Source of the DNA: Nonomuraea thailandensis
Lineage (GTDB): Bacteria > Actinomycetota > Actinomycetes > Streptosporangiales > Streptosporangiaceae
DNA length: 64,000 bases
Direction of reading: 5' to 3'
Assembly (NCBI RefSeq): GCF_024172165.1
Contig: NZ_JAMZEB010000002.1
Coordinates: forward strand, 11,801,501 to 11,865,500
Shown: positions 45,197-61,007 of the stretch, piece by piece
How positions within the stretch are numbered: position 1 is the first letter of the stretch
Layout: each line of letters begins with the position of its first letter
Position numbers and translations under genes: made by a program
The notes under the pieces: generated by a model
Seen by the model: the letters and a program-made list of their open reading frames with translations, nothing else
What the model was told of the DNA's origin: nothing
Database searches by the model: none

Positions 45197-47215
45197 TCAG
45201 GGGAGCCGTCGCCGGTATACCTCCCTGGCGCGCTCGTACAGGGCGAGGTGGTCGCCGAGCTGCTCGGGCGTCTCGAACGTGCCGAATCTGCGCAGAACCA
45301 CCTCCAGCCGATCCAGCCAGGCCAGGCACCACCGCACGTCCGCCTCCCTGGCCACGTGCCCGCCCGCGACGTCCACGTACACCGGGCTGCTGTGCGCGTA
45401 GGCGCCGGAGCGGTGCATGCTGCGCGGGTGCGGCCCGCCGGAGGCGACGGCGACGACGTACGTCGGCTCGCGCATCGCCACGCGGGCCGTCAGCCGCCCG
45501 GGCGGGCCCTTGGCCAGCACGCCGTCCGCGGTGCGGATCTCCAGCGTCTCGACCTCCGGCCCGATCGAGGAGACGGCGATCTCCACCTCCTGCCCGCGCG
45601 CCAGCTGCAGCGTGTCGCCGGGGCCGTGCCCGTTCACGGTCAGCTCCAGCCACGGCCCGGTGGTGGCGAACGTGCGGCCGAGCAGGATCGCCTCGGCGTA
45701 CGACTCGGCGGTGAGCGGGCCGGCGACGTCGGCGTACACGCGTTCCCAGCCGGGCGGGGAGGAGGCCGTGCCGCGGCGGCAGAACGACAGCACGGCGTCG
45801 GTGCCGGCCGTGACCGCCAGCCGGTTGCCCGCGCCGATCAGGCGGCGGTAGACGGCGGCGGTGGCCGCGATCGAGGAGTGGTTGAGCACGTCGAGGGTGT
45901 CGATGAGGCCCAGCGCCGCGTCGGCCACGATCTCCCTGGCCGCGCAGGAGCGTCCGCGGTCGATCGCGATGTCCGGCGGGTCGTCGTCGTCGAACGGCGT
46001 GTGGAACGGGTGCCCGTACCCGGTCACCCCGCCCAGCGCCCGCAGCTCCTCCAGCGCCACGGCGTTCGGCGGCCAGTCGGCCGTGTCGCGGAAGCCCGAG
46101 TGGTAGCGGCGCGGCGGCTCGCGCAGCCCGAACGCGGTGCAGTGGCCGATCAGGTCGTTGCGGTACTCGACGCCGAGCCTGGCCAGGTGCCGGTCGTCGG
46201 ACCACGGCAGGTCCTCGCCCGCCCAGTGCTCCAGCGCCTCCACGTCGTAGACCCGCTCACCGGCGACGTTGCCCGCCACGAGGTTGAGCACGTGCAGGTC
46301 CTCACCGTGCTGCGCCGCGGCGGCCAGGGCGGGCGCGGCCGGCTCCTCGCCCATCCAGTTCAGATGGACGTGCAGGTCGCCGCCGTACCAGCCGCGGGCG
46401 GCGGCGTCGTACAGCCGCTCGGGCGTCAGCTCCACCAGCGTCGGCGCCCCGGCCTCCGGGGTCAGCACGATCTCGGCGGTGGTGTACTCCATGCCCCTGG
46501 CCACGCTCACGGTGACCGGCTCCTCGGCGGGCACCTCGACGACGAGATCGTCACCGTGGAAGTACGGCCGCCGGTGCGCGTCCCGCTTGGGCGGAGCGCC
46601 CCGCGGATACCAGCCCTGCCCGTTCGCTCCCATGACGCTCCACCGGCAGGGGAGCCCGGCCCGCACCCTGATCAGAGCCGCCTCCGCCCGCCTGCTCAGC
46701 GGCGACAGATCGACCGGCCGCCCGCTCACCAGCACGGACTCGGCCACCTCGACCACCTTGGCGCCGCGCGGCCCCAGCGTGTACGGGATCCCGTCCACGA
46801 CCACCGTGACCGGCTCGTCCCGGCTGGAGTCGAGCAGCAACCCGGTGCGGAAGCGGGCGTCGCCCAGCACGACCTGCGTGTCGGCCTCCAGCAGGCACCC
46901 TTCGGGGGTCAGGCGGAGCGCGGCCAGGTTGTCCAGGACGTCACCGCCGAGCGCGTCGCGCACCACCCGGTCGGGATCCACCTCGCCGAGGTGGTCCTCC
47001 AGGTCGCCCGCCCGCATGCCGGGGTGCCCCTCGGCCACCTGGCGCAGGGCCGCGGCCCAGTAGCCGTAGCGGTTGTCGAGGAAGACGGTGGCCCAGGCCT
47101 GCACCACGTATCCCAGGGGCGGCTCGCCCCAGCGCACGTCGTGGGTGTCCCGCAGCGATCGGTAGTCCACCAGCGCGGCGGCGACGGCGGGAGGCAGCAG
47201 CGGATCGTCACACAT
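45197..47215 (-). CDS. CehA/McbA-family metallohydrolase (PHP-like)
   Basis: 672 residues from ATG 47215 with AGGGAG upstream. The C-terminal half is a PHP-type metallohydrolase: GWYGGDLHVHLNWMGE (first HxH metal motif, about residue 280), EDLHVLNLVAGN, GGVTGYGHPFHTPF, and LAVTAGTDAVLSF (Asp). The N-terminal 270 residues are beta-rich and may be a binding domain (PYFHGDDLVVEVPAEEPVTVSV). CehA and McbA hydrolyse carbamate insecticides, but most family members have unknown substrates, so the name only marks the fold. It is divergent from the rhodanese-CBS gene. Confidence 0.88.
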   Translation of the reverse strand: MCDDPLLPPAVAAALVDYRSLRDTHDVRWGEPPLGYVVQAWATVFLDNRYGYWAAALRQVAEGHPGMRAGDLEDHLGEVDPDRVVRDALGGDVLDNLAALRLTPEGCLLEADTQVVLGDARFRTGLLLDSSRDEPVTVVVDGIPYTLGPRGAKVVEVAESVLVSGRPVDLSPLSRRAEAALIRVRAGLPCRWSVMGANGQGWYPRGAPPKRDAHRRPYFHGDDLVVEVPAEEPVTVSVARGMEYTTAEIVLTPEAGAPTLVELTPERLYDAAARGWYGGDLHVHLNWMGEEPAAPALAAAAQHGEDLHVLNLVAGNVAGERVYDVEALEHWAGEDLPWSDDRHLARLGVEYRNDLIGHCTAFGLREPPRRYHSGFRDTADWPPNAVALEELRALGGVTGYGHPFHTPFDDDDPPDIAIDRGRSCAAREIVADAALGLIDTLDVLNHSSIAATAAVYRRLIGAGNRLAVTAGTDAVLSFCRRGTASSPPGWERVYADVAGPLTAESYAEAILLGRTFATTGPWLELTVNGHGPGDTLQLARGQEVEIAVSSIGPEVETLEIRTADGVLAKGPPGRLTARVAMREPTYVVAVASGGPHPRSMHRSGAYAHSSPVYVDVAGGHVAREADVRWCLAWLDRLEVVLRRFGTFETPEQLGDHLALYERAREVYRRRLP

Positions 47216-50175: not shown

Positions 50176-51003
50176 TCAGACGAACAGCTCGTCGATGGTC
50201 AGGGCGGTCGCCGCGCGATGCGCCCACTCGTCGAGCTGCTCCTGGTCGGCGCACGACGTGATGGCCGTCAGGGCCTCGTCCGTGATGCTCACGCCGCGCG
50301 CCCGCAGCACGGCCAGCACGGCCCGCGCCTTGCCCTCCGACAGCCCGGTGGCGCGCCCCCTGGTGAAGTGCTCGCGGGCGAACGGGCTGTAGACCGGCCA
50401 CGTGGCGGACGACATGGTCTCCTCCAGAACCCGCCGGACGTCGGTGGACGCCAGGCGGTAGGCGTACTCGTAGTAGCGGGCGCCGTGGCTCTCCTCCGTC
50501 TTCGCCAGCGCCTCCAGGAACGTCCCCGCGACCGCCTCGTCGCCGCCGTGTGACAGCACGGACAGCACCGCCAGCTCCAGGCACTCGGCGGCCTGCGCGG
50601 GATCGGAGATCGGCGCCACCTGGTCGGGGCCGACGACCAGCGGGTGCAGAACGTACCCGGGCAGGCTGGTGACGACGGGTTGCGCCGCCCAGTCGCAGAC
50701 CCCGGCGTCGGGCGCGAGCACCAGCACCAGCACCGGGCGCCTGAGCCGCAACCAGAGGGCGGCGCTGCGCCGCGCCCAGCCCTGCCGGTCCTCCTCGGAC
50801 ACGGTGTGCTGCAGCTCCACGATGACGCCGTGCGCGGGCTCGCACCAGGCCGGCGGCGCGGGTGCGCCAGGGCCGGCCGAGGCCACCTCGACCAGGGTGT
50901 CGGAGGGCAGGTCGATGTCGAACACGTCGCAGAGCAGGTCGACGGCGAGGGAGGGCCGGTTCCGAAACAAGGCGTTCAGCGCCTCATGCACGGAGGAGGG
51001 CAT
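50176..51003 (-). CDS. PD-(D/E)XK-like family protein of unknown function
   Basis: 275 residues from ATG 51003 (MPSSVHEALNALFRNRPSLAVDLL); no ribosome site. The core has a nuclease-like pattern: HGVIVELQHTVSEEDRQGWARRSAALWLRLRRPVLVLVLAPD, where VELQ resembles the ExK/ExQ motif. A charged RGRATGLSEGKARAVLAVLRARGVSITDEA segment follows near the C-terminus. Proteins of this pattern, opening with short MPSSxHE and ending GKARAVLxVLxARG, are numerous in Streptosporangiaceae genomes, from memory of the group; they are related to Rpn/transposase-associated nucleases. The function is unproven. Confidence 0.75.
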   Translation of the reverse strand: MPSSVHEALNALFRNRPSLAVDLLCDVFDIDLPSDTLVEVASAGPGAPAPPAWCEPAHGVIVELQHTVSEEDRQGWARRSAALWLRLRRPVLVLVLAPDAGVCDWAAQPVVTSLPGYVLHPLVVGPDQVAPISDPAQAAECLELAVLSVLSHGGDEAVAGTFLEALAKTEESHGARYYEYAYRLASTDVRRVLEETMSSATWPVYSPFAREHFTRGRATGLSEGKARAVLAVLRARGVSITDEALTAITSCADQEQLDEWAHRAATALTIDELFV

Positions 51004-51158
51004 GTCGCTGAACGTTACCAGTCGCGCACAAGACGTGTCGGACTTTCCGGCAGGTCCGGCCGCCCGAATCGGCCCGCCGTGCCGGGCGCAACGAGAAGTC
51101 AACGCATTCGGTAAGGGTCGTCCATTCCGATGTTGGTTTGCCACTATGGTGGCGTTTC

Positions 51159-51527
51159 ATGATGCGCGTCCCCGTCCCTGCCCGGCTCAGAAAGGCCGTG
51201 CGCACATGGTTCGACTCCCGGTACATCTCGATCGCCGATCATCGCCAGGACATCAGGGACGCGCTCTGGGAGGTCCAGACCCTGAGACGGGAGATGGCCA
51301 CCCTGCAGAGCGAGGTCGAGCGGCTGCGGAATGCCCGCCCGGCGGCGGCTGCCAAGCCTGACCCGGCGCTGAAGGCCAGGCTCGACGACACCCACCGGCT
51401 CGCCCAGGAGACGGCCAGGGCGCTGGACGGCGTGCTGCAGAACGAGGTCCTGGTCTGGCAGGCCATCGACGACCTGCGGGCCCGTCGCGACGAGCCGGGC
51501 AGGCCCGAGGAGCGACCGTGCGCGTGA
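51159..51527 (+). CDS. Small coiled-coil protein heading the PP-loop operon
   Basis: 122 residues; start at ATG 51159 or the adjoining ATG 51162. No Shine-Dalgarno sequence, and TATGGT nine bases before suggests a leaderless transcript. Basic N-terminus (RVPVPARLRKAVRTWFDSRYISIADHRQDIRDALWEVQ), then a heptad-rich coiled coil (LRREMATLQSEVERLRNARPAAA and LKARLDDTHRLAQETARALDGVLQNEVLVWQAIDDLRARRD). It overlaps the PP-loop gene by 10 bases. The function is unknown; it may scaffold the enzymes encoded downstream. Confidence 0.75.
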   Translation: MMRVPVPARLRKAVRTWFDSRYISIADHRQDIRDALWEVQTLRREMATLQSEVERLRNARPAAAAKPDPALKARLDDTHRLAQETARALDGVLQNEVLVWQAIDDLRARRDEPGRPEERPCA

Positions 51528-52729
51528 CCTGGAGCGCCGGCACGGATCTGACCTTCCGGCTCCACCCGGAGGACGAGATCACCGGCCGGGCGTCCGACGA
51601 GCACCCGATCAAGCTGGCCATCAACTCCTGCTCCATCGGCGGGGTCCCCGGCGACGCGCACCCCGACCTGTACGCCGTGGCCGCCTGGACGATCGTCGCC
51701 CCCTGGACCAGGAGGCGGATCACGTTCGACAGGGCCGTCTCGGCGGAGCTGGCTCAGGCGCTGCACGACGGCTGGGGGGTCGAGGCGGGGCCGGTGGGCG
51801 CGGAGCCCCGGCGGCCCGGGGCCAGGCTGGCGATCTCCTACAGCGGCGGCGCGGACTCCGTGGCGGCGGCCACGATCTTCCCCGAGGCCCCGTTCGTGCA
51901 CTTCCGCCGGGTCGCCCACCCGCGCGTCCCGAACCGCTGGCCGCACTACCGCTCCGACGTGCTGGCCAAGCTGGCCGCCGGGACCGGCCGCGAGCTGAGC
52001 ACGGTCACCTCGGACCTGGAGTACACGCTCGCCGAGCCCCGCCCCGGCTATCCCGAGCACCACGCGGTGGCCGCCGGCGCCCTGCTCCTGGCCGACCGGC
52101 TCGACCTGGGCGGCCTGGGCTTCGGCTACGAGATGGGCTCCCGCTGGCTCGGCGGCGGGCGCTACCTGTGGCGCTTCACCCCCGACAACCCGATGTGGGC
52201 GCCGCACGGCAGGTGGGGCCGCCTGTTCGCCGCCGCGGGCGTGCACATCGTGCTGCCCGTGGGCGGCGTGAGCGAGGCCGTCACGATGCGCCTGGCCCTG
52301 GGCTCGCCGCTCAGGGAGCAGGTGCGCTGGTGCCTGCGCGGCACCGACGGCCCGTGCCGCAACTGCGGCAAGTGCCTGTACAAGGAGCTCATCCAGGCCG
52401 CGGTGGAGCGCCGCCCGCTCGACACGCCGATCACCGCCGACCGCCCCATGGCCCGCAAGTACCTCAGGAAGCCGCCGTACGGGGGGCAGGAGATGATCCA
52501 GTACGGGCTGGCCCGCGTTCCCGGGATCGAGAACACGCTGTTCGCCCAGGCGCTCGACTACTTCGACGTGTCGGAGGAGTCCACGAGCTGGCTGGAGCAC
52601 TGCTACCCGCCAGCCCTGGAGGAGATCCCGGAGCGGTGGCGGGCGCAGGCGGCGGGGTTCATCGAGGCGAACGTGGGGCTGATGACGGAGTCCGAGGTGC
52701 GCAGAGTCGAGTCGTGGGGGAGCGCGTGA
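51518..52729 (+). CDS. PP-loop (N-type ATP pyrophosphatase) protein of unknown substrate
   Basis: 403 residues from a GTG. The PP-loop AISYSGGADSVAAATIF at about 107-123 places it with QueC, asparagine synthetase and tRNA-lysidine synthetase-type ATPases, which adenylate a carboxyl or carbonyl group and release pyrophosphate. A CRNCGKCLYKEL motif at about 279-290 probably binds zinc. The first 100 residues are a beta-rich domain (TFRLHPEDEITGRASDEHPIKLAINSCSIGGV) not seen in QueC. Related proteins occur in cell-envelope or sugar gene clusters, as far as I recall (DUF6395-like). It overlaps the genes on both sides, so its product must work with the coiled-coil and M55 proteins. Confidence 0.82.
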   Translation: MRVTWSAGTDLTFRLHPEDEITGRASDEHPIKLAINSCSIGGVPGDAHPDLYAVAAWTIVAPWTRRRITFDRAVSAELAQALHDGWGVEAGPVGAEPRRPGARLAISYSGGADSVAAATIFPEAPFVHFRRVAHPRVPNRWPHYRSDVLAKLAAGTGRELSTVTSDLEYTLAEPRPGYPEHHAVAAGALLLADRLDLGGLGFGYEMGSRWLGGGRYLWRFTPDNPMWAPHGRWGRLFAAAGVHIVLPVGGVSEAVTMRLALGSPLREQVRWCLRGTDGPCRNCGKCLYKELIQAAVERRPLDTPITADRPMARKYLRKPPYGGQEMIQYGLARVPGIENTLFAQALDYFDVSEESTSWLEHCYPPALEEIPERWRAQAAGFIEANVGLMTESEVRRVESWGSA

Positions 52730-53568
52730 AGGTCTATCTGTCGGTCGACATGGAGGGCGTGACGGGTCTGACCGACCCGGAGGAGATGCACGCCGGCAAA
52801 CGCGGGTACGAGCGGGGCTGCGAGCTGATGACGGCCGACGCGAACGCGGCCGTGGCGGGCGCCTTCGAGGCCGGCGCGAGCGGCGTGCTGGTCAACGACG
52901 CCCACGGCTCCACCAAGAACCTCCGCATCGACCTCCTCGACCCCCGGGCCAGCCTGATCAGGGGCCCCGGCAAGGCGCAGCGGATGGCGCACGGGCTCGA
53001 CGGCTCGTTCCAGGCGGCGGGCTTCGTGGGCTACCACGCCCGCGCCGGCGTGCCGCACGGGGTGCTCAACCACACGTGGATGGGCAAGGAGATCCAGAAC
53101 GTCCACCTCAACGGCGAGCTGTGCGGCGAGACGCGGCTGGTCGCGGCCTGCGCCGGGTTCCACGGGGTGCCGGTGGTGCTGGTGACCGGGGACGAGGCCG
53201 TGGGCGAGGAGGCCCGCGAACTGCTCGGCGACGTCGAGACCGTCGCGGTGAAGAAGGGCATCGACAAGTTCTCGGCCGAGCTGCTGCCGCCGAGCGTCGC
53301 CCAGGCCCGGATCCGTGAGGCCACGGCTCGGGCGCTGGGGCGGTTGAACGACTTCACGCCGTACGTGGTGGAGGCGCCGTACACGCTGGGGGTGGAGTGG
53401 AACTCCACCGCCATCGCCGCGGCCGTGTCGCTGATCCCGGGCGTGAAGTCGGCGGGCCCGCGGCACACGGAGTTCACCACCGGCGACTTCAACGAGATCA
53501 TGGCCCTGTTCGGCCTGTTCGCGAGCATCGCCGGCCAGGTCGCCTGCGGCAGCGGGCCCTATGGCTGA
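52726..53568 (+). CDS. M55-family D-aminopeptidase (DppA-like)
   Basis: 280 residues from a GTG that overlaps the PP-loop stop by four bases. The M55 metal ligands are visible: SVDMEGVTG (Asp and Glu), VNDAHGSTKNL (Asp, His), FVGYHARAG (His) and the NHTWMG catalytic loop; C-terminal VEWNSTAIAAAV matches the decamer-forming family. DppA releases N-terminal D-amino acids from short peptides, mainly D-Ala, and is used on peptidoglycan-derived peptides. Here it is in one operon with a PP-loop ATPase and an exported amine oxidase, which is not a usual setting. Confidence 0.92.
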   Translation: MKVYLSVDMEGVTGLTDPEEMHAGKRGYERGCELMTADANAAVAGAFEAGASGVLVNDAHGSTKNLRIDLLDPRASLIRGPGKAQRMAHGLDGSFQAAGFVGYHARAGVPHGVLNHTWMGKEIQNVHLNGELCGETRLVAACAGFHGVPVVLVTGDEAVGEEARELLGDVETVAVKKGIDKFSAELLPPSVAQARIREATARALGRLNDFTPYVVEAPYTLGVEWNSTAIAAAVSLIPGVKSAGPRHTEFTTGDFNEIMALFGLFASIAGQVACGSGPYG

Positions 53569-55210
53569 CACCCCCGAGCCCGGCACCCCCGGGCCCGGCA
53601 CGCCCGAGCCGGACAGGCCCGAGCCCGGCAGCCCCGCCTCTGCAGGCCCTGGGGTCAGGAGCAGGAGCGGGGCGCTGACCCGGCGGGGGCTGCTCGTCGG
53701 GATCGGCGCCGCCGGGGGCGCGGGCGCCATGTACGCCGCCATGGGCGCGCTCGGCCTGGCCCCCACCGGCCAGGACAAGGAGTACACGCCGCCGCGCCAG
53801 GGCGACTTCACGCTGAGCGGCAGGGCCTCGGCCAAGGTCGTGATCATCGGCGCCGGCGTGGCGGGGCTGACCGCCGCGTACGAGCTGGGCAAGGCCGGCT
53901 ACGACTGCACGCTGCTCGAAGCCCGGCAGAAGCCCGGCGGACGCAACCTCACCTTGCGCGCCGGCGACCGCCTGACCGAGCTGAACGGCCCCGCCCAGGA
54001 CGTGAGGTTCGGCCCGGGCGTCTACTTCAACGCGGGCCCGGGCCGCATCGCCCAGTGGATGGTGACCCTCGACTACTGCCGCGAGCTGGGCATCCCCATC
54101 GAGACCTTCATCAACAACAACGCCTCGGCCTACGTCCACACCAACGGCCGGACGGTCAGGGCCCGCACGGCCCGCGCCGACATGTACGGATACATCGCCG
54201 AACTCCTGGCCAAGGCCACCGACCTCGGCGCCCTGGACAAGACCCTCACCAAGGACGACAGGGAAAGCCTGCTGGAATTCCTCAGGCGCTTCGGCGACCT
54301 GGGCCCCAAGCTCGACTACGAGGGCTCCGCACGCCGCGGATTCACGAGATTCCCGGCCGTGGACGGCGGGATCCCCATGCCCGACCCCGGCACCCTCCAC
54401 CAGGTCCTCGCCGCCGGCACCGGCCGCGCCATCACCAACGACTTCGGCTACGAGCAGGCCACCCCCATGTTCCAGCCCGTCGGCGGCATGGACGCCATCG
54501 TCACCGGGCTCCAGCGGGCCGTCGGCCAGGACAGGATCAGGACAGGCGCCAAGGTCACCGGGATCACCACCCTGGACGACGGCGTCGAGGTCGCCTACAC
54601 CGGCGGCGCCCTCAAGGCCGACTACTGCGTCGCCACCCTCCCGCCCCACCTCCTCGCCAAGATCCCGCACAACCTCGGCGCCCCGATCACGGCCGCGCTG
54701 AGCACCCCCGTCCCGATCGCCGCCGGCAAGATCGGCCTGGAGTACGGCAGGCGCTGGTGGGAGCTGGAGGACCGCATCTACGGCGGCGTCACCGAGACCG
54801 ACCTGGACCTGACCCACATCTGGTACCCGTCGCACGACTACCACGCCGAGCGCGGCCTGCTCGTCGGCTACTACAACACCGAGGGCGTCGCCGAGCTGTA
54901 CGGCGCGCTCACCCCGGAGGACAGGCGGCGCAGGGCGCTCACCCAGGGCAAGAAGATCCACGGCGAGAAGTACCGCCAGAACGTGCTGTCCAGCGTCTCC
55001 ATCGCCTGGGAACGCCAGGAGCACATCCAGGGAGGCTGGGTGCGCTGGCCGTCCTTTGATTCGTCCTTCACTCTTCTGCAACGCCCCGCCGGAAGGGTTT
55101 ACTTCGCGGGCGACTGGCTCACCCATCTGATCGCTTGGCAGGCGGGGGCCATGGAGTCCGCACGCGGCGCCGTCACTCAGTTGCACAGGAGAGTCCTGCA
55201 GTCTCCGTGA
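53561..55210 (+). CDS. Tat-exported flavin monoamine oxidase family protein
   Basis: 549 residues from an ATG that overlaps the M55 gene by eight bases. The N-terminus has a 30-residue Pro/Glu/Gly repeat, then a twin-arginine signal (ALTRRGLLVGIGAAGGAGAM), so the folded flavoprotein is exported. FAD binding is shown by VVIIGAGVAGLTAAYELGKAGYDCTLLEA with GGR (about 90-130) and the C-terminal GRVYFAGDWLTHLIAWQAGAMESARGAV. It should oxidise a primary amine or L-amino acid to an imine with release of H2O2 outside the cell. The substrate is unknown; the operon context suggests a D-amino-acid- or peptide-linked amine. Confidence 0.92.
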   Translation: MADTPEPGTPGPGTPEPDRPEPGSPASAGPGVRSRSGALTRRGLLVGIGAAGGAGAMYAAMGALGLAPTGQDKEYTPPRQGDFTLSGRASAKVVIIGAGVAGLTAAYELGKAGYDCTLLEARQKPGGRNLTLRAGDRLTELNGPAQDVRFGPGVYFNAGPGRIAQWMVTLDYCRELGIPIETFINNNASAYVHTNGRTVRARTARADMYGYIAELLAKATDLGALDKTLTKDDRESLLEFLRRFGDLGPKLDYEGSARRGFTRFPAVDGGIPMPDPGTLHQVLAAGTGRAITNDFGYEQATPMFQPVGGMDAIVTGLQRAVGQDRIRTGAKVTGITTLDDGVEVAYTGGALKADYCVATLPPHLLAKIPHNLGAPITAALSTPVPIAAGKIGLEYGRRWWELEDRIYGGVTETDLDLTHIWYPSHDYHAERGLLVGYYNTEGVAELYGALTPEDRRRRALTQGKKIHGEKYRQNVLSSVSIAWERQEHIQGGWVRWPSFDSSFTLLQRPAGRVYFAGDWLTHLIAWQAGAMESARGAVTQLHRRVLQSP

Positions 55211-55271: not shown

Positions 55272-55784
55272 ATGACGTTGCACTGGGTGCCCGCGACCGG
55301 ACGGACCGACCTGCTGGCCGATCCTGTGGTCCGGGCCGTGCCGAACGTGGAGGGCGCCGAGGTGGCCGAGATCGATCCCGATCTGGCCGACACGGCGGCG
55401 TTCTGCGAGAGGTACGGCGTGACCCTGGAGGAGTCGGCCAACTGCGTCGTCGTGGCGGCCAAGCGGGGCGGCGAGACGCGTTATGCCGCGTGCATGGTGC
55501 TCGCGACGATGCGCGTCGACGTGAACGGCGTGGTGCGCAGGCACCTCGACGCCCGCAAGGCCAGCTTCGCCCCGATGGCGGAGGCGGTCGAGCTGACCGG
55601 CATGGAGTACGGCGGCATCACGCCCCTCGGCCTGCCCGAGGAGTGGCCGATCCTGGTGGACACGCACGTCGCGGAGCACCCGAGGGTGGTGATCGGAAGC
55701 GGTGTGCGCAGATCGAAGCTGGCCGTCTCCGGCGCCGCACTGGCCGGGCTGAAGAGGGCAGAGGTGCTCTCGCTGGCCGGCTGA
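55272..55784 (+). CDS. YbaK/EbsC-type aminoacyl-tRNA deacylase
   Basis: 170 residues with GAGGAGATGGA before the ATG. A single-domain YbaK/ProX fold with ANCVVVAAKRGGETRYAACMVLATMRVDVNG (the conserved Lys of the editing site), KASFAPMAEAVELTGMEYGGITPLGLP and the DTHVAEHPRVVIGSGVRRSKLAVSGAALAGL tail. The family hydrolyses Cys- or Ala-tRNA(Pro) and protects against mistranslation. It is transcribed alone, 61 bases after the amine oxidase and 132 bases before the first kinase gene. Confidence 0.92.
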   Translation: MTLHWVPATGRTDLLADPVVRAVPNVEGAEVAEIDPDLADTAAFCERYGVTLEESANCVVVAAKRGGETRYAACMVLATMRVDVNGVVRRHLDARKASFAPMAEAVELTGMEYGGITPLGLPEEWPILVDTHVAEHPRVVIGSGVRRSKLAVSGAALAGLKRAEVLSLAG

Positions 55785-55916
55785 AGGCAAACTGAGGCCG
55801 ATTCGAGACCGTTGGATGGGAAACCGATGAGGCCGTTCTGGACGTTGTACGAGTGGGAATGTGGCCTCATGGTTCATCTCGTGGGCGGGGATTAAGCCGG
55901 TATGGTGCTTCATGCC

Positions 55917-57926
55917 ATGAACGATGACCGACTAGGCCCTTACCGGCTGCTCAGGCGGCTCGGTGAAGGCGGGATGGGCGTTGTCCACCTCGCTGTCGAC
56001 CCTCAGGGGCGGCAGGTGGCCATCAAGGTCCTGCGCGGAGAGGTCGCCGGTGACGAGGTCGCCAGGCGACGGCTTTCGCGCGAGGTCGAGACCATGCGCC
56101 GGGTGCGCAGCAAGTACATCGCCGAGGTGCTCGACGCCGATGTGACCGGTCATCGTCCGTACATCGTGACGCGTTACGTGCCCGGGCCGCCGCTCGACGA
56201 GATCGTCAAGAACGACGGGCCGCTCGACCTGCCCGCGCTGCTCAGGGTCGCCCACGGGGTGGCCTCGGCGCTGGCCGTCGTGCACTCGGTGGGCGTGATC
56301 CACCGCGATCTCAAGCCGGGTAACGTGCTGATCCTCGACGGCGAGCCGGTCCTCATCGACTTCGGCATCGCCCAGGCGGTCGACGCCACGCGGCTGACGC
56401 AGACCGGCATGTTCATCGGCACGCCCGGCTACCTCGCGCCCGAGATCATCGAGGGCCAGGAGGCGGGCCCCGAGGTCGACATCCACGCGTGGGCCGGCAC
56501 GCTGCTGTACGCGGGCACGGGCCAGCCGCCCTTCGGCAAGGGCACGCTGGAGATGATCTTCTACAACATCACCGCGGGCAAGGCCGACATCAGCGCCGCC
56601 CCCGCCGAGCTGCAGCCGCTGCTCAAGGCCGCCTTCCAGCGCAACCCCAACAAGCGGCCCAAGGCCGCCGAGCTGGCCGAGCAGACCGCCAGGATGTTGC
56701 CCAAGCCGGCGCAGGGCTCCTCGCCCGACGAGATCTCCACCGTGCCGCGCCCTGAGCCGCGTCCTGAGCCGCGTCCTGAGCCGCGCCCCGAGCCGCCCAA
56801 GGTGACGGAGCGGCCGTCGTACGACATCTCCACGCCCCCGGTGACGCCGAAGCGGCTGCTGGAGAACCAGGAGCAGCCGCCCCAGCCGCAACCGCAGGAC
56901 CAGCAGTACGTCTCGCTGCTGCCCAACCAGCCCGACCCGTGGCCGACCCGCAGGGTGTCGCCGGAGGAGCTGCGGCAGATCCAGCGCGAGGCCGGGGTCT
57001 ACCCGCCGCAGTCGCCGCAGGCCGGCGGCAACGGCCCGGCCGCGCCCGCGCACGGCGAGACCGACGTGCCCACGAGACGGGTGCGCCCCGACTCGCCCGA
57101 CTACCGCAGGATGAACCCGGGCCCCCAGTCGGGCCCCAACCTCGGCAGGCCCGCCGGCCCCGAGGGGCGTCCTGACACCCCCGACTACGGCCGGCCCAAC
57201 CCGATCCCGATGCAGCCGCCGCCCTACATCCCGGCGCAGCCGCAGTTCCCACCCGCCCAGCCCGACCGGCTGAGCACCAAGCGGGAGCCGTACATCCCGG
57301 GCGCGCAGCCGGGCAAGCCGCTGCAGCGTTCGCGGGCGTACGGCGTGGCGGGCGCCATGCTGCTGATCCTGATGATCGTCGCGGCCGTGTTCAAGCCCGT
57401 GCTGGTCGCGATCGTGGCGGTCCCCGTCGCGATCCTGCTGCGCGCGGCCGACCTGGCGCAGCCCCAGCTCGCCGCCAGGCGGTCGGCGGGCGCGGCGGCG
57501 CTCGACGTGGTCAGGGTGTTCGCCTTCCCCGGCGCGCTGGCCAAGTCGGCGGGCATCACGCTGGCGCTCGTGCTCTACGCGCTCATCCTGGGGCTGCCCG
57601 TCACCCTGCTGCTCACCGTGGTGGCCGGGATGGACTCCTACTACGCCCTGGCCTGGGGCGCGGCGATCGCACTGTGGACGGTCTGCGCGGGCCCCGGCGT
57701 CGAAGGTCCGGGCAAACAGATGCGCAGAACGCTCTCATCGCTCGTACCCTCGAGAACAGCGGCGATGGTGATGGCGGGAGTCCTCGCGGCGGGTGCCGCG
57801 CTCTCGCTGGGCCTCGCATCCAGCACTTTCGGGGACGAGCCGGAGGGGGAGGCCGTATGGACTCCGCTGAACGTCGGAGAAGTGGCGAGGCAACTCAACC
57901 AGCTAGGGGGGAATTCCGGGGGATGA
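55917..57926 (+). CDS. Transmembrane Ser/Thr protein kinase with long Pro-rich linker
   Basis: 669 residues from ATG 55917; an ATG at 55902 is also open. There is no ribosome site and TATGGT ten bases upstream suggests a leaderless message. Kinase domain (about 5-262): LGEGGMGVVHLAVD, IKVL Lys, VIHRDLKPGNVLI (catalytic Asp about 131), IDFGIAQ, GTPGYLAPEI. A linker of about 190 residues has tandem PRPEPRPEPRPEP units and is Pro/Gln-rich. At the C-terminus five or so transmembrane helices (AMLLILMIVAAVFKPVLVAIVAVPVAILL, ALVLYALILGLPVTLLLTVVAG and others) replace the PASTA sensor of PknB types. It is the first of three tandem kinases. Confidence 0.93.
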   Translation: MNDDRLGPYRLLRRLGEGGMGVVHLAVDPQGRQVAIKVLRGEVAGDEVARRRLSREVETMRRVRSKYIAEVLDADVTGHRPYIVTRYVPGPPLDEIVKNDGPLDLPALLRVAHGVASALAVVHSVGVIHRDLKPGNVLILDGEPVLIDFGIAQAVDATRLTQTGMFIGTPGYLAPEIIEGQEAGPEVDIHAWAGTLLYAGTGQPPFGKGTLEMIFYNITAGKADISAAPAELQPLLKAAFQRNPNKRPKAAELAEQTARMLPKPAQGSSPDEISTVPRPEPRPEPRPEPRPEPPKVTERPSYDISTPPVTPKRLLENQEQPPQPQPQDQQYVSLLPNQPDPWPTRRVSPEELRQIQREAGVYPPQSPQAGGNGPAAPAHGETDVPTRRVRPDSPDYRRMNPGPQSGPNLGRPAGPEGRPDTPDYGRPNPIPMQPPPYIPAQPQFPPAQPDRLSTKREPYIPGAQPGKPLQRSRAYGVAGAMLLILMIVAAVFKPVLVAIVAVPVAILLRAADLAQPQLAARRSAGAAALDVVRVFAFPGALAKSAGITLALVLYALILGLPVTLLLTVVAGMDSYYALAWGAAIALWTVCAGPGVEGPGKQMRRTLSSLVPSRTAAMVMAGVLAAGAALSLGLASSTFGDEPEGEAVWTPLNVGEVARQLNQLGGNSGG

Positions 57927-57942
57927 CGCGGGGAAGGTGGCG

Positions 57943-59760
57943 ATGAGCACCCAAGCACCAGAACGCCTCGGCCCGTACCGCCTCGTCAGGAAGATCGGCG
58001 AGGGTGGCATGGGGGTCGTCCACCTCGGTCTCGACGGTGAGGGACGCGAAGTCGCCATCAAGGTGCTGCATCCCCACGTGGCCGCCGACCTCAAGGCGCG
58101 CGACCGGCTGACCCGCGAGGTCGAGACGATGCGGAGGGTGCGCTCCCCGTTCGTCGCGGAGGTGATCGACGCCGAGCTCGTCGGGAGCCAGCCGTACGTG
58201 GTGACCCGTTTCGCCCCCGGCCGGACCCTGGAGGACACCGTGCTGGCCGAGGGCCCGCTGGAGGCCCGCCAGGTCATCCAGCTCGCCCAGGGGCTGTGCC
58301 AGGCGCTGGTGGCCATCCACGCGGCCGACGTGATCCACCGCGACTTCAAGCCGTCCAACGTCATGCTGGTCGACGAGCGGCCGCTGGTCATCGACTTCGG
58401 CATCGCCCACCTGGTCAACGCCACCCGGCTGACGCAGACGGGCATGTTCGTGGGCACGCCGGGCTACCTGGCGCCCGAGATCATCCGCGACTCCGACATC
58501 ACCCAGGCGGCCGACGTGCACGCGCTGGCCTCGACGGTGTTCTTCGCCGCGACCGGCGCGCCGCCGTTCGGCACGGGCACGTTCGAGTCCGTCTGCTTCA
58601 ACATCATGGAAGGGCGGGCGCAGATCGACAAGGCGCCCGCGTGGCTGCGCGGCTGGCTCAGCCGGGCGCTGCAGGTCGAGCCGTCGGCCCGGCCCGGCGC
58701 CCACGAGCTGCTGCGGATGGCCAAGGCGCTGGACCCGTCGGTGACCACGTTCAACGAGGGCCCGACGGGCACGAAACCGGTGGGCCGCACGCGGACCATG
58801 GACACGTTCTCCGACCTGCTGCCGCCGGTCGAGTACGGCCAGGCTGCGCCGCCGCCCTCGCCGACGCCGACGCGGCACGAGGAGCGGCCCAAGCGGCGTG
58901 AGGAGCGGCCCAAGCGGCGCGAGGAGCGGCCGCCGCCGTACGTGCCCGCGCCGATGTCCGCCAGGCCCGCGCCCCATCCCGACCAGCGCGTGGCCGGCCA
59001 CCCGCCGCCCGACCGGCGGCTGGTGCCCGCACCCACCTCGCCGTCGCCGGTGCGGCCCTACACCCCGCCGCCGCAGTACACGCCGCCGTCGGAGCGCAAG
59101 CGCTACCTGTTCGGCAGCCAGGTCGTCGGGTTGCTGCTGCTCGTCACGCTGGTGGCGCTGACCGTCATGATGCCGGTCATGGCCGGAGCGGTGGCCATCG
59201 CGCTGGCGTTCGTGCTGCGCATCGGCGAATACCTCTTCGGCGACCTGGTCAAGCGCCGCCAGGTGCGCGGCAGCAGCGCCGCCGACCCGCTGCTCGCCCT
59301 GGTCGGCACGCCGTGGGCGCTGGTCAAGTCCGCGCTCGTGACCGTGGTGCACGTGCCGCTGGCGCTGCTGTTCGGCGTCTGCGTCTGGGGCGTGCTGTAC
59401 TGGGCCGGGCAGATGGGCGTGAACGAGGCGGCGGCGTACGCGGCGGGCGCCTTCGCGGCAGGGTTGTTCGTGCTGCCGGGAGGCGGCGCGCCTCGTCAGG
59501 CCGTCACGCGCACGCTCACCGGCGTGCTGCGCAGCCCCGGCGCCGCCCTGGTGGCGGTCGTGCTGGTGGGTACGGCGGCGCTGTTCGCGGTGATGTTCGC
59601 GCTGGGGCAGGACACCTCGTGGGCGCCGTGGCGGGCGCCGGAATCGGTGATCAACGACCTGGCGAGCGACGCGAGGCAGAGCACGATCGGCCTGATCACA
59701 GGGCTGATCGGCGATCTGCTCAACGGGCTGGGGCTGGGGTGGCTGAATCCCTGGTCCTGA
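57943..59760 (+). CDS. Transmembrane Ser/Thr protein kinase (second of three)
   Basis: 605 residues from ATG 57943 with GGAAGG upstream. Kinase domain (about 10-265): IGEGGMGVVHLGLD, VIHRDFKPSNVMLVDERPLVIDFGIAH and GTPGYLAPEIIR. Phe replaces Leu after the catalytic HRD. The linker carries the repeated charged unit RPKRREERPKRREERPP and then Pro-rich sequence. The C-terminal membrane region has about six helices (VVGLLLLVTLVALTVMMPVMAGAVAIALAFVL; ALVTVVHVPLALLFGVCVWGVLYW; and two more). It is 70-80 percent like the first kinase in layout, which supports local duplication. No extracellular sensor domain is present. Confidence 0.93.
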   Translation: MSTQAPERLGPYRLVRKIGEGGMGVVHLGLDGEGREVAIKVLHPHVAADLKARDRLTREVETMRRVRSPFVAEVIDAELVGSQPYVVTRFAPGRTLEDTVLAEGPLEARQVIQLAQGLCQALVAIHAADVIHRDFKPSNVMLVDERPLVIDFGIAHLVNATRLTQTGMFVGTPGYLAPEIIRDSDITQAADVHALASTVFFAATGAPPFGTGTFESVCFNIMEGRAQIDKAPAWLRGWLSRALQVEPSARPGAHELLRMAKALDPSVTTFNEGPTGTKPVGRTRTMDTFSDLLPPVEYGQAAPPPSPTPTRHEERPKRREERPKRREERPPPYVPAPMSARPAPHPDQRVAGHPPPDRRLVPAPTSPSPVRPYTPPPQYTPPSERKRYLFGSQVVGLLLLVTLVALTVMMPVMAGAVAIALAFVLRIGEYLFGDLVKRRQVRGSSAADPLLALVGTPWALVKSALVTVVHVPLALLFGVCVWGVLYWAGQMGVNEAAAYAAGAFAAGLFVLPGGGAPRQAVTRTLTGVLRSPGAALVAVVLVGTAALFAVMFALGQDTSWAPWRAPESVINDLASDARQSTIGLITGLIGDLLNGLGLGWLNPWS

Positions 59761-59795
59761 GTGTCCCTGCCGGTCCCGCGGGGGAGAGATGAGGT

Positions 59796-61007
<1,212 letters not shown>

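Follow-up and report, generated by a model that had tools for sequence, protein, structure and literature searches.

A conserved operon of the Streptosporangiaceae encoding a QueC-like DUF6395 protein, a coiled-coil protein and putative amino acid enzymes

INTRODUCTION

PP-loop enzymes of the QueC kind use ATP to activate a carboxyl or amide oxygen. We describe here a predicted member of this group, termed PP, from the actinomycete Nonomuraea thailandensis. Its gene is one of four that overlap in series. The others encode a coiled-coil protein (CC), a homologue of the M55 D-aminopeptidases (M55) and a flavin oxidase, and a gene for a YbaK/aminoacyl-tRNA editing domain protein (EDIT) follows. 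All of them lie in a stretch of 64,000 nucleotides on contig NZ_JAMZEB010000002.1 of a 13.8-Mb genome. The whole stretch is referred to as the window, and positions are given in its numbering (Table 1).

Several described systems resemble parts of this locus. The substrate motifs of QueC (PF06508) are given as YxQxHxxE, VPxRN and YPDC (PMC13329287). QatC of the Qat defence system is a protein of about 400 residues whose QueC core is extended at both termini, and an alpha-helical partner is encoded next to it (PMC13279940; PMC13329287). The QatC motifs are listed as C(x)19CGxCxxRR, D(x)4R(x)7WxR and P(x)4TK (PMC13329287). The WbpG-type N-acetyl sugar amidotransferases are PP-loop enzymes of surface polysaccharide synthesis; the CxxC(x)6CxC signature reported for them sets them apart from PP by description (PMC13329287). 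DUF6395 (PF19932), the family to which PP belongs, is a Pfam family without a function that spans only the C-terminal part of the protein, and a literature search for the name DUF6395 found no paper. For M55 and the oxidase, the points of comparison are DppA of Bacillus and the L-amino acid oxidase (LAAO) of Rhodococcus opacus.

The locus deserves attention because one family of actinomycetes has kept, in an operon, an enzyme without an assigned function. Placing DUF6395 near a group of QueC-like proteins, many of them from polysaccharide loci and one fused to a pyruvyl transferase, would make this orphan domain part of an enzyme class that can be tested. If this is true, one more lineage would be added to the range of the QueC scaffold, which takes in nucleosides, defence, cofactors and O-antigen sugars.

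A UNIT KEPT ACROSS ONE FAMILY

The four genes overlap by 10 (CC and PP), 4 (PP and M55) and 8 bases (M55 and oxidase). The original prediction, made from the letters alone, had read four overlapping genes here, and all of the reading frames are indeed open at these places. Conservation was followed by a pattern scan of species genomes, which yielded 102 relatives of PP. The counts cover the best 80 of these, which come from 13 named genera of the Streptosporangiaceae and a few other records; gene ends were extrapolated from tblastn matches and some loci stop at contig ends. CC is present in 80 of the 80 loci, M55 in 72, the oxidase in 79 and EDIT in 74. A gene for an enoyl-CoA hydratase (ECH) lies upstream on the same strand in 67.

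The spacing of these genes is informative. Gaps of more than 500 bases separate ECH from CC in 22 of 67 loci, whereas they are rare further in: 0/80 between CC and PP, 3/72 between PP and M55, 2/72 between M55 and the oxidase and 0/74 between the oxidase and EDIT. Therefore, the unit is taken to run from CC to at least EDIT, which probably belongs to it as a fifth gene. The difference between the ECH-CC junction and the CC-PP junction also argues that the arrangement is not due to chance. CC adjoins PP in all 80 loci, and the two make an inseparable pair. A second set, of 25 operon loci with an intact PP (L031-L044, L046-L056), has CC in every case, with the oxidase missing from three and M55 from two. 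In the 23 of these loci that have both PP and M55, the two genes overlap by four bases in 13 and by one base in two, and are separated by 10-170 bases in eight.

Thus, the four overlapping genes form a predicted operon that is kept across the Streptosporangiaceae. The single transcription unit proposed originally agrees with the overlaps, with the scarcity of internal insertions and with the conservation in 13 named genera. Co-occurrence in unrelated genera had been named as the support to look for. The 13 genera were found, but all are inside one family, so shared descent explains much of the co-occurrence. Indeed, every four-gene locus detected belongs to the Streptosporangiaceae or to a metagenome-assembled genome without a family name. 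In the genomes scanned, DUF6395 is likewise narrow in spread. PF19932 scores above its cut-off in 15 of 394 genomes of the class, all within the Streptosporangiaceae, in 18 of 61 genomes of the family (one of the 18 a decayed remnant) and, among 296 genomes of the phylum, in the source genome only. The M55 family is widespread (52/61 family genomes, 111/394 class genomes). The source genome has one match each to PF19932 and PF04951, the M55 family.

Three oddities of distribution can be noted. Genome G430 has, besides its operon copy, another DUF6395 gene that stands alone elsewhere (L057, on contig C39). In Sphaerisporangium album (L123) the order breaks 3' of PP, where no M55, oxidase or editing gene was matched and an open reading frame (ORF) of 2103 residues comes next. 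A 20-bit DUF6395 match with internal stops in genome G274 was dropped as noise.

LOCI THAT LACK PARTS OF THE UNIT

Which of these genes depend on each other? A sample of 61 family genomes, 17 of them with an intact PP, gives a partial answer. The oxidase occurs in 16 of the 17 genomes with an intact PP vs. 4 of the 44 without it (Fisher p 4e-10, uncorrected for relatedness), which speaks for some tie between these two genes. In contrast, any M55, a category that takes in other M55 clades, occurs in 15/17 vs. 37/44 (p 1), showing no association. For most genomes only 23 of the first-look oxidase candidates were scored, which makes oxidase absences weaker there than in genome G423, where 23 of 23 were scored.

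In that genome both PP and M55 are retained, but nothing matched the oxidase at E<=1e-60. G396 and G430 have PP together with the oxidase, and neither has an M55 anywhere. Conversely, PP is absent from G275 and G414, although M55, the oxidase and EDIT all lie at this locus. By an eye count, CC in these two genomes is a short ORF (66 and 64 residues) whose end coincides with the M55 start or precedes it by 11 bases. At the locus of G412 (L176) there are only ECH, M55, EDIT and the kinase genes, with no CC, PP or oxidase. Taken together, four loci in which PP is absent or decayed have a CC cut to about 65 residues (L173, L174) or undetected (L176, L058). The shortened ORFs of the PP-less genomes are tidy (L173:9339-9539, plus strand; L174:10413-10607, minus strand), and the N-terminal half of CC may have a role without PP.

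The phylogeny of M55 bears on how the unit arose. M55 proteins from operon loci form one deep clade far from the other M55 proteins sampled (33-41% identity to those compared). The G412 protein branches first within it, with modest support (88/85), and presence of PP needs four changes on the tree. The simplest reading, which is not proved, is that M55 and EDIT are an old core to which CC, PP and the oxidase were added later, followed by some losses.

PP HAS A QueC-LIKE CORE

PP consists of an N-terminal domain, a QueC-like PP-loop core and a C-terminal extension. The PF19932 match covers residues 232-401 and scores 226 bits, where the cut-off is 25 (E 3e-67). In 27 orthologues, with start codons chosen by us here and in the other scripted counts, SGGxDS is present in 26 and S[SG]GxDS in all. 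C(x)7-9CxxCxxC, a putative zinc motif that has x7 in the window protein and corresponds to C(x)8CxxCxxC of QueC, is present in 27/27. A PP-loop protein with a cysteine knuckle, as first proposed, is therefore upheld. Both the loop and the four cysteines are shared with QueC, and they superpose, as do both ends, in a profile alignment of the two. However, PP differs from QueC in having extensions of about 100 residues at both ends, and each of the three QueC substrate motifs is found in 0/27 orthologues. The YxDC motif of Cap9 and QueC-like proteins is likewise found in 0/27. The original prediction had named a QueC-type identity as speaking against itself. This is borne out as far as the QueC-like core goes, but not for the substrate motifs.

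Family models place PP only loosely. PF06508 gives no match to the window protein, whose score is thus below the gathering cut-off, and appears as a weak second in 6 of the 27 orthologues at E<=10 (best 0.027). Over 60 class genomes, PF06508 matches proteins in 23, one at 60 bits and the others at no more than 24 bits, and none in the source genome. Among NCBIfam models, LarE matches three orthologues (best 0.24) and QueC two (0.22). The CD1375 model (34 positions) matches 16 of 27, at best with 3e-4; the match covers 17 residues in PP, is below the cut-off and was treated as chance. Nothing credible came out of PDB profile searches with the three profiles introduced below (A1, A2 and A3) or with a relative at locus L256, and a phage search with queries P0002 and P0006 found no match.

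Profile-profile comparison (hhalign) used a panel of 11 E. coli PP-loop proteins, a seven-sequence QueC profile and 27 other E. coli proteins as controls. A DUF6395 family profile (A1) scores highest with TtcA (33.1), the QueC profile (31.6) and ArgG (30.7), and the best control reaches 25.2, above some of the PP-loop proteins (ThiI, CysD, and CysH). Searched over 246 genomes of the phylum, A1 retrieves the PP gene of the window and seven short matches with E 0.016-0.052, which were treated as PP-loop noise. Overall, PP is a predicted QueC-like enzyme that fails the signatures of QueC, Cap9 and QatC (for the last, see below).

THE COILED-COIL PROTEIN

CC has a basic N-terminus and two conserved regions, a D-x-R-Y...H-R-x-D block and another at about residues 80-104. 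Its heptad score was equaled by none of 200 shuffles, in contrast to 188/200 for PP. In a relative of PP at locus L258, the PP-loop protein itself ends in a coiled coil (shuffles as high, 1/200; ZapB-like match 7e-6, below the ZapB family cut-off). Because of this fused coiled coil, CC is read as a subunit of PP. In the scripted set, the end assigned to the CC of L043 overruns a stop codon.

PROBABLE DISTANT RELATIVES, MANY IN POLYSACCHARIDE LOCI

The link between PP and a wider group of proteins begins with a Priestia megaterium plasmid. It encodes a full-length DUF6395 homologue of PP (29% identity, E 1e-21) whose gene has glycosyltransferases, nucleotide-sugar dehydrogenases, GalU and spore-coat genes as neighbors. 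The same plasmid encodes two more proteins of about 400 residues with weak QueC/DUF6395 matches. When one of these two proteins was used as the query, relatives were found on 21 plasmid records, 12 of them from haloarchaea and the rest from Priestia, Pseudobutyrivibrio, Gemmobacter, Gloeothece and Nostoc. A nine-row profile of this QueC-like plasmid family is called A2, and the group is spread over archaea and four bacterial phyla. Two Priestia plasmids (L235 and L242) have two A2 PP-loop proteins each, and one of the plasmids has a DUF6395 protein as well, in polysaccharide and spore-coat surroundings.

A3, a profile made of 13 family sequences plus the Priestia one (14 rows), aligns with A2 from end to end, residues 23-401 to 12-393, with a probability of 95.6% and a score of 69.4. 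By comparison, A3 scores no more than 34.6 against the 11 E. coli PP-loop proteins and the QueC profile, and its best non-PP-loop control scores 22.6 (among the 16 rows listed; 27 controls were run). Three actinobacterial relatives, aligned with one another, match A3 with 95.6% as well, over nearly the full length. DUF6395 and A2 may well make up one superfamily, a good case but one that depends largely on the Priestia sequence.

Gene contexts were read for 12 of the 21 plasmid records. Ten contain a glycosyltransferase, a flippase or a polysaccharide pyruvyl transferase. Of the other two, that of Halostagnicola has only a polysaccharide deacetylase and that of Nostoc only a polysaccharide tyrosine kinase. 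Counted by lineage, six of seven have a glycan context (Priestia, Natrialbaceae, Halorientalis, Pseudobutyrivibrio, Gemmobacter, and Gloeothece, but not Nostoc). A2 relatives also occur in 6 of 296 Actinomycetota genomes. In one of these actinobacterial loci, a single ORF (L257:5605-8508, plus strand) joins the PP-loop protein to a PS_pyruv_trans domain (34.7 bits, cut-off 25.3).

THE PEPTIDASE AND THE OXIDASE

M55 matches PF04951 with 312 bits (E 4e-93), and D8, E10, H60, H104, H116 and E135, which we take to be metal or active-site positions, are kept in 24 of 24 orthologues. The M55 homologue of the original prediction is accordingly confirmed. The protein is a clear homologue of Bacillus DppA with all six checked positions kept. 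It differs in scoring 205 bits against the NCBIfam DppA cut-off of 430.

The oxidase belongs to PF01593 (2e-38). Its best solved relative is the R. opacus LAAO 2jae (4e-127), with the next solved relative at 2e-24, and it is therefore unlike a monoamine oxidase. Residues R162, Q299, Y438, W493 and W526 align with R. opacus Arg84, Gln228, Tyr371, Trp426 and Trp467, and are kept in 22, 21, 22, 22 and 22 of 22 orthologues. The R. opacus residues are presumably those that contact the substrate. Passages of PMC9331233 did not confirm this assignment. All 22 orthologues extracted have a twin-arginine motif in their N-terminal part, although in that of L054 the scripted match is an earlier RR and TRRSLL comes after it. 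Thus, the protein resembles L-amino-acid oxidases and is a clear homologue of the R. opacus enzyme with conserved active-site positions, from which it differs by bearing a twin-arginine (Tat)-type signal. Of the exported amine oxidase first proposed, the flavin oxidase with its Tat-type signal stands, whereas the type of oxidase shifts to one closest to the R. opacus LAAO. The gene from L048 (genome G415), which was kept in the counts, has one in-frame TGA, reflecting either a sequencing error or early decay. A desaturase-like PADLOC model matching the oxidase (1e-36) was read as general flavin-oxidase similarity. No export signal was seen in M55 or PP by reading without a predictor.

WHAT MIGHT THE OPERON DO?

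The best explanation that we can offer for the whole is a Streptosporangiaceae operon of two modules, in which PP activates a carboxylate of a surface glycan. This is put forward tentatively. The first module would be CC and PP, a coiled-coil partner with an ATP-pyrophosphatase of the QueC-like superfamily. PP would adenylate a carboxylate on a cell-surface glycan or on its nucleotide-sugar or lipid-linked precursor. The activated carboxylate would then react with an amine, either ammonia or that of an amino acid, to give an amide. The adenylation chemistry is suggested by the PP-loop fold. The glycan substrate is suggested by the gene contexts of the relatives and by the one fusion, and these contexts are why an acidic sugar is proposed. 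CC would probably scaffold PP or keep it at the membrane, as the one fused coiled coil in a relative hints. The second module, M55, the exported oxidase and EDIT, would serve amino acid and peptide turnover separately from the first.

A bolder version, which we consider doubtful, is that DUF6395 and A2 together are an unrecognized QueC-like adenylating superfamily, present in archaea and at least four bacterial phyla, that amidates or aminoacylates acidic sugars of surface glycans. The Streptosporangiaceae member, with CC as its subunit, would have come to lie in an amino acid operon, where M55 and the oxidase possibly supply or trim the amino acid that PP attaches to the glycan.

Several observations weigh against a glycan role and the superfamily that underlies it. 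Without the Priestia row the family profile (A1) matches A2 with a probability of only 52% and a score of 40.7, which makes the Priestia protein the bridge between DUF6395 and A2; A2 scores higher than this against QueC (80%, score 45.3). HMMER with A2 finds no PP in the source genome at E<=0.001, A1 found no A2-type proteins in the 246 phylum genomes, and A2 was found in 0 of the 61 family genomes. The A2 and A3 profiles are shallow. The plasmid contexts are an uneven sample from accessory DNA, and because some share a lineage (five haloarchaea, two Priestia and two Gloeothece) they do not count as independent cases. In four of the six actinobacterial A2 loci, nine neighbors scanned with Pfam included no glycan gene, and there is none in the window operon or among the window neighbors scanned. 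Among the literature matches listed, there was no precedent for a PP-loop enzyme amidating a uronic acid. Finally, PP is associated with the oxidase, and the two may be more closely tied than a model of separate modules allows; this is the main loose end.

What if PP is instead an enzyme of the QatC/Cap9 type? It would adenylate a small carboxylate, e.g., a deazaguanine acid, and conjugate it to a protein encoded next door, with CC as the partner or the substrate and a role in defence or regulation. This is the main rival because QatBC, too, pairs a QueC-like enzyme of about 400 residues with a helical partner, and the inseparability of CC and PP fits it. In addition, one of the nine A2 rows weakly matches the QatC model NF041925 (E 0.054). 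However, PADLOC, applied to the proteins of the four genes and to some relatives, gave no match for PP, and NCBIfam gave no QatC match in the 27 orthologues, both at E<=10. The three QatC motifs and YxDC are all at 0/27, and the glycine at position 2 that makes up the MG motif of the QatC partner is at 0/25 in CC orthologues, with start codons as chosen by us. Nor is there a qatA- or qatD-like domain among the window neighbors scanned. PP was compared with QatC by models and motifs. Such a role is considered unlikely.

Another possibility is that long shared synteny within a single family is all that holds the genes together, and that nothing but co-expression links them functionally. The confinement of four-gene loci to the Streptosporangiaceae (or genomes without a family name) is what this would predict, and the conserved order does reach beyond the unit to the downstream Ser/Thr kinases. 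In opposition to this, insertions are frequent 5' of CC (22/67) and rare inside the unit, and loss of PP goes along with a shortened or absent CC. We therefore rate pure synteny as improbable.

The original prediction favored a single linear pathway in which M55, PP and the oxidase lead to D-amino-acid or peptidoglycan-peptide products. The overlapping genes, with the four-base overlap of PP and M55 in 13 of 23 loci, are in its favor, as are the conserved metal positions of M55 and the co-occurrence of PP with the oxidase (16/17 vs. 4/44). However, each enzyme is kept without another in some genome (G423; G396, G430; G275, G414). Moreover, the oxidase has L-amino-acid residues and a Tat-type signal, whereas M55 and PP have no export signal that could be seen by reading, and the first branch of the M55 clade is a locus without CC, PP or oxidase, which fits a later joining of PP. 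This pathway was not borne out and now seems very unlikely.

Finally, a tRNA- or nucleotide-modifying role for PP (TtcA/TilS/QueC-like), matching the tRNA-editing domain gene in the unit and the place of TtcA as first E. coli family by probability (25.6% with A3, 24.3% with A1), is highly improbable given that the probabilities are low for all 11 E. coli families, that YxQxHxxE, VPxRN and YPDC are absent from 27/27 orthologues, and that the PP gene is narrowly spread with distant relatives read mostly in glycan loci.

LAYOUT OF THE LOCUS AND ITS SURROUNDINGS

Table 1. Window positions of the genes and motifs discussed in the text.
Feature	Positions	Strand	Basis
CC, coiled-coil protein, 122 residues	51159..51527	+	open reading frame
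PP, PP-loop DUF6395 protein, 403 residues, GTG start	51518..52729	+	PF19932, E 3e-67
SGGADS PP-loop motif, PP residues 109-114	51842..51859	+	SGGxDS in 26/27 orthologues
Cys4 knuckle C-x7-C-x2-C-x2-C, PP residues 272-286	52331..52375	+	four Cys invariant in 27/27
M55, DppA-like D-aminopeptidase homologue, GTG start	52726..53568	+	PF04951, 4e-93; 1hi9 DppA, 2e-48
LAAO, L-amino-acid oxidase homologue with Tat-type signal	53561..55210	+	2jae, 4e-127
Twin-arginine signal region of LAAO, starts TRRGLL	53678..53764	+	motif in LAAO orthologues
EDIT, YbaK/aminoacyl-tRNA editing domain protein, probable fifth gene	55272..55784	+	PF04073, 3e-22; 74/80 loci

A promoter scan of the locus returned 0 promoters. 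A terminator scan returned two terminator-like sites, which is uninformative because shuffles give a mean of 1.8.

Upstream on the minus strand, an ORF of 672 residues (45197-47215) has no Pfam match at E<=0.01. Another of 322 residues (50176-51144, minus strand) lies between the ECH gene and CC and has no Pfam or NCBIfam match. A homologue of it was found in 6 of the 39 Nonomuraea-group loci searched (L059-L097), and the ECH-CC junction shows other long gaps too. On the 3' side, the unit is followed by three tandem Ser/Thr protein kinase genes (55902-61007, plus strand), and kinase genes also lie 3' of the unit in most loci of the second set of relatives.

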